Shown here in pieces: positions 14,975 to 22,826 of a stretch of 64,000 bases of DNA. The position numbers and the translations under genes are program-made. This stretch comes from an uncultured Desulfobulbaceae bacterium (GTDB lineage: Bacteria; Desulfobacterota; Desulfobulbia; Desulfobulbales; Desulfobulbaceae): NCBI GenBank assembly GCA_947259225.1, contig CAMYLK010000006.1:62001-126000 (forward strand). The letters are read 5' to 3'. Numbering within the stretch: position 1 is the first letter of the stretch; each line of letters starts with the position of its first letter. The notes under the pieces are model-generated. The model was not told the origin of the DNA and did not search any database. It saw nothing but the letters and a program-made list of their open reading frames with translations.

Positions 14975-15895
14975 ATGTCTGTGTACGTAGTAGGTCATAA
15001 AAGTCCTGATACCGATTCGGTTACAGCTGCAATTGCATATGCCGAATTGATGAAAGCCAAAGGAGAAGACTACATTCCATGCATCCAGGGGAAGGCGAAT
15101 CCTGAGACTGCTTTAGTGCTTGAGCGTTTTGGTGCTGCTGTTCCTGAACTGATGACAGACGCCACCGGCAAGCAGGTGGCTCTTGTAGATCACAGTGATC
15201 TGAACCAGGCTCCGGATAATCTGGGTGACGGTGAAGTGGTTGCTATAGTTGATCATCACAAGATCGGGGATGTTACCACCAACAATCCCATATTTTTCTG
15301 CGCCATGCCGGTTGGCTGTACCGGTACAGTTCTTAAGGTACTTTATGACCTTGAGGGAGTTGCTGTTCAGCCTGAAGTAGCTGGAATGATGCTGGCTGCC
15401 ATCCTGAGTGCTACCGTCAACTTCAAGTCACCCACCTGCACAGACGCTGACAAATAGGCTGTTGCGGTACTGAAGGTTATTGCAGGAGTTGATGATACGG
15501 AGGCTCTTTTTATGGATATGCTCAAGGCGAAAAGCGCCGTAGAGGGCGTACCGTCCATGGATTTGCTGGACCGTGATTACAAGGATTTCGATATGAAGGG
15601 CAATAAGGTCGGCGTCGGCCAGCTTGAACTTGCCACCCTGGACCAGGTTGCCTCCATGCGTGATGATCTGTACCAAGCCATGGAAGAGAAGAAGGCCGGG
15701 GGGCGTCATTCAGTGCTGCTCATGCTGACCGATGTAGTTAAAGAAGGAACAGACCTGATGGTTGTGTCTGATGATCCTTCTGTTATAGAGGGTGCCTTCA
15801 GCGCAAAGCTTGACGGTAATTCCATGTGGATTGACGGGATGATGAGCCGTAAAAAGCAGACCGTTCCGAATCTTCAGGAAGCTTTCGGCTGCTAG
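14975..15895 (+). CDS. ppaC: Manganese-dependent inorganic pyrophosphatase (family II), interrupted by in-frame TAG at 15455-15457
   Basis: VGHKSPDTDSV, DHH motif (VAIVDHHKIGD), KSPTCTDADK*AVAVLKVIAGVD, C-terminal SRKKQTVP. The two track ORFs (14975..15457 and 15512..15895) are the same frame separated only by one amber codon. Confidence 0.88.
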
Positions 15896-15983: not shown

Positions 15984-17567
15984 TTAAGTCTTTGATGCCG
16001 GGCACCTGATCATTTTTACCTTTCTGTCGAAATCAAAGTTGTCGTCCCGGTCAGGCGTGTGACAGGTGAGGCAGGTTTGAACCGTTGGCTTGAGGGGCCT
16101 GTTCTGTTCCGGTTGTTCGGTATGCTTCCTGGCAGGTCCGTGACAGGCTTCACAGCTAACGCCTTTGAATTCAGGAGTAAGAGCGGCAAGAAGATTATCT
16201 CTGAATACAACATTCCTGTCATAGGTTGGTAATGTAACATGACAGATCAGGCAGTCCTGGTTGAATTGCTGTTTATTGTTATTTAGGGTATCCCATGCTT
16301 TTGCATGATCTGTTTTTTTCCAGAACTCTGTTTGTTCTGCGTGGCAGGTTTGACATGATTTCCAGCCAGCCATTGAGGAAAGAATATTGGCCTTGCTGGT
16401 TTTCTGTCTCAGTTCCTCCATTCTTATTTTGTTTATCTCGTTAACCCTTTTTTTGTTGTCGGCCAAAATAGACCTGACCTCGGGATCTTCCGGCAAAGCT
16501 ATTTTCAAGGGAATGGCTCTGTAATTGTATGTTGACAGATTTTCTGATTCCTGCTGTTCAAGCTGCTGTATATCCGCTATCTCTTTAAGAATACTTGCTT
16601 TTTCTGTTTGCAGCTTACGATACTGCACATTCTGCGAAAGGTTTTTACCCGGATTTCTTTTTTCCAGGCGTCCAAGCCTCCAGTTGATCCGGTCAAGCCT
16701 GTCCCGGGAGGTTTTTAGTCGGGGGGTGTTATCCTGATGCCATTTTTTTGCGCTGGTCCAATGTATATCAATTGAGCCCAGATATTTACCTCTACTTGCT
16801 GTCTGTGTAAGGAGACTCTTGCCCTTGAGATAAGGAACCCTGTTCGCCGATGAGTGACCGGATTGTAATATTAGGTTGATTTCATTAAATTGCTGGGCAA
16901 TCTCAATGTTAATCTGTTCAGGAAAATTTGACAGCAGAACAATCATGTCCGGTGAATTGACAAGCGCAGTTAATGTTTTCCGGATGGTTTCCTGCCATGG
17001 AAGTATCGAAACATTTGATAATAACTCATTGTTTAACGTTTTTGTGTCAATACCTGTCATTCCCAGGATTGCAACCGATAAATCACCAACCTGTTGTATG
17101 ATAAACGGTTTGAATACGGGTTCTCCGGTTTCCTGCCTTACGAGGTTCGCTGAGATAAAAGGAATGGTGTATGTATCCTGAAGGTGTTCAAGGAATTCTA
17201 TACCTGCACTTAAGTCTTGAGGGGCCACGCCTATTGCATTGTATTGCATGCTGCGCATGGCCTGCATGATTCCTTCAGCCTGTTCCTTTTTGCCCGATAA
17301 TTGGGAAGGAGGCAGGACAGGTAAATCAAAAAGCAGAGCTCCGGCATCAAGAATAAGCACAGGCTTGTCAGCTTCGTTCAGGTTCTGTCTGATTACATTT
17401 GCTCTTCTGGACAGACCGCCCATTTGATTTGTTTTTCAACCGCAGGGTTCGGTCTCGCCTCGAATATCATTGGAGAAGAGCAAGGTAAAGTCGGTGGCAT
17501 GGCTCGATGAATATGGTACCGCGAAAGAAAAGACGGCTGTAAGGAGAAATACTATCGTACGCTGCAT
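15984..17567 (-). CDS. Candidate selenoprotein: UshA/5'-nucleotidase-like domain fused to a multiheme cytochrome c (c554-like) domain, UGA at 17436-17438 read as Sec
   Basis: Extending upstream through one TGA gives MQRTIVFLLTAVFSFAVPYSSSHATDFTLLFSNDIRGETEPCG(U)KTNQMGGLSRRANVI..., with a signal peptide and an EPCGC-like motif. CxxCH motifs CQTCH, CLICH, CEACH, CLTCH downstream. The ORF track starts only at 17423, after the TGA. Confidence 0.85.
17408..17422 (-). promoter_or_regulatory. bSECIS-like hairpin downstream of UGA
   Basis: UGGGC-GGUCU-GUCCA: 5 bp stem including one GU, 5 nt loop GGUCU, loop starting ~19 nt after the UGA. Confidence 0.7.
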
Positions 17568-17571
17568 GCTG

Positions 17572-18921
17572 TTATTCCTTTTTTGTCTGTTTGTTTTTCA
17601 AGGCTCTATCACGTAAGATTTTGCGCCATTTTATCAAGCGGTCCCGGATGACCGTTTCATAGCCACGGGTAGTAGGTTCATAGTAGAGCCGGCCCTTTAA
17701 TTCTTGCGGCAGATGCTCCTGCTCCACCAGCGCTTCAATATCATCATGAGCATACTGGTAACCTTTACCATACCCGATCTCCTTCATTAATCTTGTAGGG
17801 GCGTTGCGCAGATGGATTGGAACCGGCAGGGATCCTGTCTTCTTGATGTCATGAGCAATTTTTTTACTTGCAGCATATAAAGCATTGCTCTTGGGAGCTG
17901 TAGCCATGTATGCGGCTGATTGGAGCAGGGCCAGTTCACCTTCCGGTGAACCGAGAATATGATATGCTTCTCTGCAGTTCAAGGCGATTTGCAGTGCCTG
18001 TGGATCCGCATTGCCTATATCTTCAGAAGCAAACCTGATAAGCCGACGGGCTGCATAAAGCGGATCCTCTCCCGCTTCCAGCATTCTGGACAGCCAGTAC
18101 ATAGCCCCGTCAGGGTCACTGTCTCGCAGGCTTTTGTGCAGGGCGGATATCTGGTTATAATGTTCCTCTCCGGTTGTATCATACCGCAGGCTCCTGTATT
18201 GCCCTGCCTCATAAATTGTCTCAGCTGATATGACCGGTTTCTTTCTGTTTTTATTTATGTCTGATTCAACTGCCAGGGTGGCTGCGGTCTCGAGACAATT
18301 GAGAGCCCGTCGGCTGTCCCCGTCAGCATAACGGACAAGTGCATCAATACTTACATCTTCCAGGATAAAATTATTAGTGCCAAGTCCTTTTTCTTTATCC
18401 TGCAGTGCTCTTGTGACAATAAATTTTATATCCTCAGGAGCCAGAGGCTTCAGTACAAGCGTTTGGCAGCGGGACAGCAGCGGGGCAATAACGTTGAAGG
18501 AGGGGTTTTCAGTAGTAGCGCCGATGAGCGTAAGCAATCCGCTTTCAACGTGCGGGAGAAAAGCATCCTGCTGGCTTTTGTTAAAACGGTGGATTTCATC
18601 AACAAACAGTATGGTGTTAATACCATCATCTCTCTTTACACGCGCTTCTTCAACTATTCTTCGTATGTCTTTTACTCCGGCAAGTACTGCGGAAAAAAAA
18701 ACAAAGTTAGCATCAACAGAATTGGCAAGAATAGTAGCCAGTGTTGTTTTTCCTGAGCCGGGAGGGCCCCACAGGAGCAATGATGGGATTTGCCGGAGAA
18801 GAATGAGCTGATGCAGCAGTCTCCCGGGGCCGACAAGATGGCCCTGCCCGGTGAACTCATCCAGAGATTGGGGCCGGATCCTCTCTGCAAGTGGGGTGTT
18901 GGGCAGGTTATGAGATTCCAT
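17572..18921 (-). CDS. rarA: Replication-associated recombination protein A (AAA ATPase, RarA/MgsA)
   Basis: PLAERIRPQSLDEFTGQGHLVGPG...LLLWGPPGSGKTTLA...LFVDEIHRFNKSQQDAFLPHVE...IGATTENPSF. Confidence 0.95.
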   Translation of the reverse strand: MESHNLPNTPLAERIRPQSLDEFTGQGHLVGPGRLLHQLILLRQIPSLLLWGPPGSGKTTLATILANSVDANFVFFSAVLAGVKDIRRIVEEARVKRDDGINTILFVDEIHRFNKSQQDAFLPHVESGLLTLIGATTENPSFNVIAPLLSRCQTLVLKPLAPEDIKFIVTRALQDKEKGLGTNNFILEDVSIDALVRYADGDSRRALNCLETAATLAVESDINKNRKKPVISAETIYEAGQYRSLRYDTTGEEHYNQISALHKSLRDSDPDGAMYWLSRMLEAGEDPLYAARRLIRFASEDIGNADPQALQIALNCREAYHILGSPEGELALLQSAAYMATAPKSNALYAASKKIAHDIKKTGSLPVPIHLRNAPTRLMKEIGYGKGYQYAHDDIEALVEQEHLPQELKGRLYYEPTTRGYETVIRDRLIKWRKILRDRALKNKQTKKE

Positions 18922-20788: not shown

Positions 20789-21232
20789 TTATTTTTCTTT
20801 GGTCATTGCCATGGAAGCCCAGAGGCTATCCCTTTCTTTCTGTTTTCTCAACATAGCTTTTTCAAGAGTTTTCATCTGTACACCCTCCGGACTGACCATA
20901 AAGTCAACACCCATCCTGTAGGCCTTGATATCCTCCATGTCAAACTGGTTCAACCACACTGGACGGGCAGGTATGATAAAATCGCTGAGGTCAGGTGGGA
21001 TATTAATATGCAACTGCAGAAATAAAGAGTCGTCCTCTTTGGTAGTATGATAAACGTGAAAAGTCTTGAGCAGAACCTGAGTCATAAGCAGGCAGGCACC
21101 GTGCCTGGAGATGTCGACTATTCTACCGGAGAATGGGCCGGCTATTGTCGAGTTATTGACACCTGACATCACGGAAACTGAGATGGGGAGAAAATCCGCG
21201 TAGCGCTTTGAACGTCGGAGTTCTGATATCAT
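20789..21232 (-). CDS. PilZ-like domain protein (array member 5 in transcription order)
   Basis: RRSKR...GRIVDISRHGACLLM...IPARPVWLN. Confidence 0.8.
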   Translation of the reverse strand: MISELRRSKRYADFLPISVSVMSGVNNSTIAGPFSGRIVDISRHGACLLMTQVLLKTFHVYHTTKEDDSLFLQLHINIPPDLSDFIIPARPVWLNQFDMEDIKAYRMGVDFMVSPEGVQMKTLEKAMLRKQKERDSLWASMAMTKEK

Positions 21233-21621
21233 TTTTTACTGATGACCTGTTCAAGTTGTATCATTTGCTCACCCTCCGGGTTGATCATGAACTCAACACC
21301 GATTTTGAAAGCATGAAGGTCACCTTCCTGGAAAATGTCCATCCAGATGGGGCGACTGGGAATTTTACACTCTATTATCTCTGGTTGAATGTTTATGGTC
21401 AATTGAAGAAAAACGGAATCTGATTCTTTGGTTGAGTGAAAAATATGAAAGGTGTTCATCATAACCTGGGACATGAGCAGGCAGGCCCCGTGTCGTGATA
21501 TATTAATGATCCTGCCCTGAAAAGGGCCTGCTTTTGTTGTATCTTCATCACCATCTATAGCTACAACGGAGATTGGCAGAAAGCGATCATACCTTTTTGA
21601 TCTTCGGAGGATCTTTGTCAT
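21229..21621 (-). CDS. PilZ-like domain protein (array member 4)
   Basis: RRSKR...GRIINISRHGACLLM...IPSRPIWMD; 4 bp overlaps with neighbours. Confidence 0.8.
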   Translation of the reverse strand: MTKILRRSKRYDRFLPISVVAIDGDEDTTKAGPFQGRIINISRHGACLLMSQVMMNTFHIFHSTKESDSVFLQLTINIQPEIIECKIPSRPIWMDIFQEGDLHAFKIGVEFMINPEGEQMIQLEQVISKK

Positions 21622-22004
21622 AAATTCTGGGAAAGTAAACTGATTATTTCAGAGTCTTTTTCTATGTTTAGAAATTCTATGCCAATCATCCGTTCGTGGA
21701 AATCTTCTCTTTGAAACGAGTTTAACCAGACAGGCCTGGCTTCAATTGTTATACTTTTCAGAAGATGAGGAAGGTCTATTTCCATGTACAGATAAGCAGA
21801 GCTTTCCGCCCGGGTGGAGTGGAAAATGTGAAAAGAGTCGTGGTTGGTCCTGGACATGAGTAAGCATGCTCCATTACTGCAAATATCTACAACGGTCCCT
21901 GGAAATGGACCGGCCAGGTAATCATCGCTTCCTTGGGTTTTGACAAATACTGATACAGGGGTAAAGTCGGTCTGGCGCTTGCATCGGCGAAGATCAGAAC
22001 TCAT
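21618..22004 (-). CDS. PilZ-like domain protein (array member 3, divergent motif)
   Basis: RRCKR...GTVVDICSNGACLLM...IEARPVWLN; Ser of DxSxxG is Cys. Confidence 0.75.
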   Translation of the reverse strand: MSSDLRRCKRQTDFTPVSVFVKTQGSDDYLAGPFPGTVVDICSNGACLLMSRTNHDSFHIFHSTRAESSAYLYMEIDLPHLLKSITIEARPVWLNSFQREDFHERMIGIEFLNIEKDSEIISLLSQNL

Positions 22005-22393
22005 ACATTTTTGCTCAATTTATCAATTTTCCTCAAGTCGTTTCTTCCGAGGCTGTCGATAAAATCAACACCGATTCTAAAGACTTTCATATCGTCCAGT
22101 TTCATTGAATTGAACCATACCGGCCGAGCCGCGATTTTCATAGTTTCCGAATCCTCAGGATTCTGTATTTTAATCTGGAGGCTTGAAGATGTATCTTCTC
22201 TTGTTGAATGAAAAATATGGAAATTATCTATCATGACATGAGGCATGAGCAGACAGGCACCATGATTAGAGATATTTACTATCCTCCCAGATAAAGGACC
22301 GGCGAGTTTTTGCTGGTGATTATCCCCGTCTACGAAAAGGGTGATGGGCAGGAAATCATTGTATCGTGACGATCTTCGCAGTTCAGCTGCCAT
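22001..22393 (-). CDS. PilZ-like domain protein (array member 2)
   Basis: RRSSR...GRIVNISNHGACLLM...IAARPVWFN. Confidence 0.8.
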   Translation of the reverse strand: MAAELRRSSRYNDFLPITLFVDGDNHQQKLAGPLSGRIVNISNHGACLLMPHVMIDNFHIFHSTREDTSSSLQIKIQNPEDSETMKIAARPVWFNSMKLDDMKVFRIGVDFIDSLGRNDLRKIDKLSKNV

Positions 22394-22826
22394 TGCCAGC
22401 CTCTATTTCGGTTATAATATCCACCTGTGTCTCCGATTGGTTGCTCACCTTGTCAATAATGTTGTCCATTTTTTCACTGTCGGGGTTTACCAGGAATTCC
22501 ACACCCATTTTGAATGCGCGAATATCATCCATGACAATAGGTTCTGCCCAGATGGGTCGGGCGGAAAGCTTGAAATTGTTAATCTCCGGTTCGATGCTCC
22601 CCTGGATGTCGATGTAGGAAGAGTCATCTTTATGGGTGGAACTGTAAACCTGGTATGCGTCAAGTACTCCCAGCGACATCAGCAGGCATGCGCCATACCT
22701 TGAAATGTTTATAATCCTGCCGGAAAATGGTCCTGCTTCCTTCTGTCCATTCATTCCGTTGTGGGCCTCAACTGAAACTGCAATAAAGTCGTTAAAACGT
22801 TTGGAGCGTCGCAATTCAGAAATCAT
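22383..22826 (-). CDS. PilZ-like domain protein (array member 1)
   Basis: RRSKR...GRIINISRYGACLLM...LSARPIWAE. Confidence 0.8.
   Translation of the reverse strand: MISELRRSKRFNDFIAVSVEAHNGMNGQKEAGPFSGRIINISRYGACLLMSLGVLDAYQVYSSTHKDDSSYIDIQGSIEPEINNFKLSARPIWAEPIVMDDIRAFKMGVEFLVNPDSEKMDNIIDKVSNQSETQVDIITEIEAGNGS

Follow-up and report, generated by a model that had tools for sequence, protein, structure and literature searches.

A predicted exported selenoprotein with a degenerate UshA-type fold and a tetraheme domain in Desulfobulbaceae

The locus described here raises the question of whether a single in-frame TGA ends a reading frame or encodes selenocysteine (Sec) in an exported heme protein. 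It lies in the window, the whole 64,000-nucleotide stretch of Desulfobulbaceae DNA that was analysed, and its mechanical ORF starts at a downstream ATG (17423), encodes 479 aa and loses the first 48 residues of a longer frame. When the TGA is read as U, positions 15984–17567 on the minus strand make up a single frame that runs for 527 codons and ends in TAA. Translation places its only TGA (17436–17438) at residue 44, where it closes an EPCG(TGA) motif at residues 40–44. The initial annotation had proposed that the same frame runs upstream through this single TGA to an ATG at 17567, 4 bp past the rarA stop, and translation reproduces exactly this arrangement, with the N-terminal extension contributing MQRTIVFLLTAVFSFAVPYSSSHA and ...SNDIRGETEPCG(U)KTNQMGGLSRR. 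The features of the gene are the following.

15984–17567, minus strand: predicted selenoprotein gene, UshA-like (seleno)protein NF041198 with a C-terminal tetraheme domain (translation, NCBIfam, homologues)
17436–17438, minus strand: in-frame TGA, predicted Sec44 of the PCGU motif (TGA/Cys column, homologues)
17496–17567, minus strand: putative N-terminal signal peptide, residues 1–24 (from sequence; residues 1–20 have low model confidence)
16710–17495, minus strand: domain of 5'-nucleotidase/UshA fold with a degenerate metal site; C42-G43-Sec44 lies within it, and the domain boundary, near residue 286, is approximate (Foldseek, ligand columns)
16032–16398, minus strand: C-terminal cytochrome c554-type domain with four CxxCH motifs, residues ~391–512 (PF13435, PF14522, 1bvb)
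17408–17422, minus strand: bacterial SECIS-type hairpin, stem TGGGC/GTCCA, loop GGTCT at 17413–17417 (fold, compensatory changes, codon constraint)

The signal peptide, typical by its sequence, falls in the part missing from the mechanical ORF, and the encoded protein carries four CxxCH motifs by translation. The extension does supply the export signal that, as had been pointed out, a protein with four CxxCH motifs would otherwise lack. Attachment of c-type heme requires an export signal, and the Sec reading is favoured because only the extended form has one.

The extended protein matches the NCBIfam profile NF041198, "UshA-like (seleno)protein", with 580.9 bits against a cut-off of 275, residues 8–513 aligning with positions 5–518 of 519, and the truncated form without the extension scores 514.9 bits. 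Homologous rows from the fetched loci were then sorted by what they carry at the TGA column. All 127 rows with a residue there have either TGA (60) or Cys (67) and no row has anything else, a further 52 rows having no residue at that position; the expectation that relatives would carry Cys at this column is thus borne out. Cys forms include those of cable bacteria (Electronema), Myxococcales and Planctomycetes. The difference between 581 and 515 bits with and without the extension, together with the TGA at the same column in 60 homologous rows, argues that the frame across the TGA is not a product of chance. Among the matches listed for the order, most contain exactly one TGA. In searches of genome contigs, a single-protein query gave no match and an alignment query gave matches.

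The genome encodes SelA (630 bits), SelB (351 bits) and SelD (339 bits, from a gene that itself contains an in-frame TGA), so that three of the four Sec genes sought following the initial annotation were recovered; the fourth, selC, was not found in the draft. Searches for tRNA-Sec in the draft assembly with the Rfam model, with congener DNA and with an anticodon-arm pattern allowing at most 3 mismatches gave no hit, there being no positive control in the genome. A tRNA-Sec is present in all six of the other genomes of the genus, and at two congener loci (L042 and L046) it lies between a small ORF and a gene that reads as glyQ. Searches of the draft for glyQ, for the small ORF and for the DNA of the congener region, likewise run without a positive control, returned nothing. 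The assembly is 93% complete and consists of 288 contigs. Glycyl-tRNA synthetase is essential, and the absence of selC is most simply explained by an assembly gap, because its congener neighbours, including the essential glyQ, are missing too.

Downstream of the TGA, the hairpin UGGGC-GGUCU-GUCCA named by the initial annotation is present. It does not follow immediately on the TGA, as had been stated, but is separated from it by 13 nt, which is the usual spacing of a bacterial SECIS element; the distance from UGA to loop is 18 nt, and a G opens the loop. The hairpin alone folds at -5.5 kcal/mol, the minimum free energy of the 48-nt stretch is unremarkable (z -0.9), and Rfam at gathering thresholds gave no match in the window. 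The case for the hairpin is therefore made by codon constraint and covariation and not by energy. In 55 distinct Sec genes, the Gly-Gly-Leu residues are encoded by GGC (55/55), GGT (50/55) and CTG (54/55), whereas the same residues in Cys genes use GGC in 27/54, GGT in 11/54 and CTG in 15/29. The 5-bp stem is in register in 53 of the 55 Sec genes versus 4 of 54 Cys genes. L085 and L117, the Sec genes that lack it, have rebuilt a longer stem, CTTGGC/GCCAAG, and keep the GGTCT letters. Changes on both sides were seen for 3 of 6 pairs, L156 has A-U in place of the closing C-G, and none of 500 shuffles matched any observed measure; as the compared sequences are related, Fisher tests and shuffles overstate their independence and these numbers are descriptive. 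At the level of sequence comparison, the hairpin is specific to Sec-coding genes, maintained nearly letter for letter through synonymous sites and mostly lost in Cys genes.

In four Cys-coding relatives (L014, L017, L048 and L055), the letters of the hairpin are largely or completely preserved downstream of the Cys codon, and these genes look as if they had recently been converted from Sec to Cys.

These data bear on how the codon is read. Were the UGA a genuine stop, the gene would be a pseudogene, or translation would really begin at ATG 17423 and yield a cytosolic protein; the mechanical ORF call, the tRNA-Sec not found in the draft and a neighbouring ppaC that is itself broken would all fit, but the same TGA recurs in dozens of genomes with the frames intact on either side, a c-type cytochrome would lose its signal peptide, and the Sec-specific hairpin accompanies selA, selB and selD in the genome. 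We regard this alternative as extremely improbable. If near-cognate suppression or an altered genetic code led to insertion of Trp or Cys at the UGA, this would accord with the many homologues that have Cys at the column, yet it is the TGA form, not the Cys form, that the hairpin accompanies, the Sec machinery is present, including the selD with its in-frame TGA, and the other genes of the window are normal under table 11, which leaves this option with next to no credibility as well. Comparative sequence analysis shows instead that UGA 17436–17438 is predicted to be decoded as Sec, and the gene very probably encodes an exported selenoprotein of NF041198. The proposal of Sec in a periplasmic heme protein is in this way supported by the Cys/TGA column, by selA, selB and selD and by the Sec-specific hairpin. 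The hairpin, 13 nt beyond the codon, would direct decoding through SelB and tRNA-Sec.

Next, we considered what kind of protein carries this residue. The AlphaFold2 model has a mean pLDDT of 89.4 and a pTM of 0.86, with low confidence for residues 1–20, and its best PDB matches in Foldseek are 5'-nucleotidases, E. coli UshA among them (E ~1e-19, TM ~0.47). The structure search found no thioredoxin-like fold around the CGU motif. Metal and catalytic positions were mapped through the alignment to 3ivd, and their conservation was counted in 36 sequences. The first Asp is retained in 24 of the 36, the first His in 8 (Arg here) and the bridging Asp also in 8 (Ala here), other residues stand in for the Asn and His of the GNHE motif, and most of the later His ligands have disappeared. 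Taken together, the dinuclear metal ligands and catalytic His of UshA and the 5'-nucleotidases lie in degenerate columns. By comparison, Cys42 and Sec/Cys44 are each present in 36/36, and all four CxxCH motifs are retained in nearly all of these sequences. In the same 3ivd alignment, the Cys-Gly-Sec loop directly follows what was the first metal-binding motif. The earlier label "UshA-like" is correct for the fold and is to be taken as referring to the fold only, because the metal ligands of a nucleotidase are not conserved. The domain is a pseudo-nucleotidase fold in which the former active site is flanked by a Cys-x-Sec loop. The C-terminal part matches the cytochrome c554 and c7 families, with PF13435 scoring 52.7 bits against a cut-off of 20.8 and PF14522 also above its cut-off.

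The mature exported protein would consist of a UshA/5'-nucleotidase-fold domain that has lost most metal ligands, an invariant Cys-Gly-Sec (Cys in some relatives) in the loop after the old first metal motif, and then a cytochrome c554-type tetraheme domain. Cys and Sec may form a selenylsulfide/selenol redox pair, or a binder of soft substrates, in the periplasm, and the hemes would carry electrons to or from this pair. The motif and the heme fusion, which are the only grounds for this redox mechanism, make it reasonably probable. The initial annotation had left C-G-U as either a redox or a metal-binding motif; the first of these is preferred here, and the second is kept as a lesser rival in which the loop binds a soft metal or metalloid, the protein being a periplasmic sensor, carrier or detoxifier whose hemes either have a structural role or reduce what is bound. 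A C-x-U/C motif could plausibly chelate soft metals, its loop comes after the former metal motif of the phosphoesterases, and a thioredoxin-like fold around the motif was not found in the structure search. Against this, no conserved metal-resistance neighbour is apparent, the conserved neighbours identified being rarA and ppaC, the CxxU (L156) and CxxxU (L150) spacings of two relatives would be less easily tolerated by a strict chelate, and fusion to a tetraheme domain is more naturally explained by electron transfer; we consider soft-metal binding unlikely. Similarity in fold and profile to UshA, the 5'-nucleotidases and SoxB could also mean that the Sec motif is a side feature of a metal-dependent 5'-nucleotidase or of a thiosulfohydrolase of the SoxB type. 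However, of the metal ligands and catalytic residues that were mapped, the first Asp (24/36) is the one that is still common, and such enzymology, rejected on the loss of ligands, is considered very unlikely.

Orthologues without hemes occur in several genomes of the order. Six of these orthologues (L149, L151, L154, L155, L157 and L158) keep the TGA and the hairpin, end at ~325–380 residues and contain no CxxCH; they occupy the same locus, with rarA and/or ppaC adjacent, and in the two heme-less proteins tested no Pfam heme domain was found. The spacing variants mentioned above read PCGG-U in L156 (CxxU) and PCGSG-U in L150 (CxxxU), and L160 appears to code for Cys. Five heme-less proteins score 254–285 bits against NF041198, on either side of the cut-off of 275, and some will therefore escape annotation. 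Because same-locus orthologues retain the TGA without the hemes, catalysis probably resides in the Cys-x-Sec domain, with the tetraheme module serving as an add-on for electron transfer that is dispensable or replaced by a separate partner in some lineages. A broader proposal, which we put forward tentatively, is that the Cys-(x)1-3-Sec pseudo-nucleotidase domain may be a self-standing periplasmic redox enzyme, near-universal in Desulfobulbales, with an optional tetraheme module; the heme-less orthologues, whether they lost the hemes or never had them, would then point to an undescribed core reaction with varied electron partners.

The conserved neighbours of the gene in the window are the following.

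17572–18921, minus strand: rarA-like AAA ATPase, directly upstream (NCBIfam; conserved neighbour, no functional link implied)
14975–15895, plus strand: ppaC, Mn-dependent inorganic pyrophosphatase, convergent conserved neighbour, disrupted by TAG 15455–15457

The rarA-like gene family occurs in 18 of 25 related loci, and rarA and ppaC are the neighbours in the majority of related loci. Operon logic was tried as a guide to a partner or a substrate and was discarded, as the conserved neighbours rarA and ppaC suggest neither. In ppaC, the in-frame TAG (15455–15457) stands where relatives have a sense codon, mostly for Lys or Ala, and 15 residues upstream of it the sequence reads ILSATV; in the relatives listed, this stretch is ILSDTV or differs slightly from it but has the Asp, which is likely a metal ligand. 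Pyrrolysine at this TAG was rejected, there being no PylS above the cut-off in the genome, and ppaC is either a pseudogene or affected by a draft assembly error. Elsewhere in the window, positions 20789–22826 on the minus strand hold five consecutive similar genes of 128–147 aa that start with M..ELRRSKRYxDFLPIS. They form an apparent tandem family, possibly PilZ-like, and related genes occupy the corresponding position in neighbouring genomes.

Default gene calling shortens the predicted selenoprotein and drops its export signal, so that a heme protein looks cytosolic. Judging from gene distribution, a periplasmic, probably selenium-dependent and unstudied protein appears to be a core gene of the Desulfobulbales sulfur bacteria, because 200 of the 263 genomes of the order have a match above the NF041198 cut-off and those under the cut-off that were re-examined mostly have heme-less or split TGA copies. 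With these orthologues that lack hemes, the question of function comes down to the Cys-x-Sec domain and can be addressed experimentally with a small protein.

The gene is a member of the already catalogued NF041198 selenoprotein family, and the initial reading is confirmed as right and as not new, the family having appeared in databases and papers before. An UshA-like CxU protein of COG0737 was tabulated with 76 sequences in a Global Ocean Sampling survey in 2008 (PMC2398784), an UshA-like protein was listed in 2022 with WP_013162925.1 (PMC9312934), and NF041198 was listed in 2026 with the motif CxU (PMC13188914). No functional study of the NF041198 family was found in the literature searched. 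The present protein agrees with NF041198 in its full-length profile match, in the PCGU motif and in the occurrence of Cys or Sec forms, without essential difference, and some heme-less relatives score close to or under the cut-off of that family. With the 2008 entry, the earliest description found, it shares the CxU motif and the COG; the tabulated material gives neither a heme domain nor a mechanism (PMC2398784). Membership in NF049981, UshA-like (seleno)protein family 2, does not apply, as the score of 46.6 bits is under the 140-bit cut-off; that family has a related N-terminal domain but differs in being short (262 positions) and in its CxxU motif (PMC13188914). E. coli UshA and the 5'-nucleotidases (1ush, 3ivd) and SoxB have the fold of the N-terminal domain in common with the protein, in which, unlike in them, the metal ligands and catalytic His are not conserved, and where UshA and the 5'-nucleotidases have a C-terminal nucleotidase domain, the tetraheme domain is found here. 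The C-terminal heme-binding region resembles that of cytochrome c554 (1bvb; 75 bits for the family profile), with the difference that here it is fused to the predicted Sec domain.
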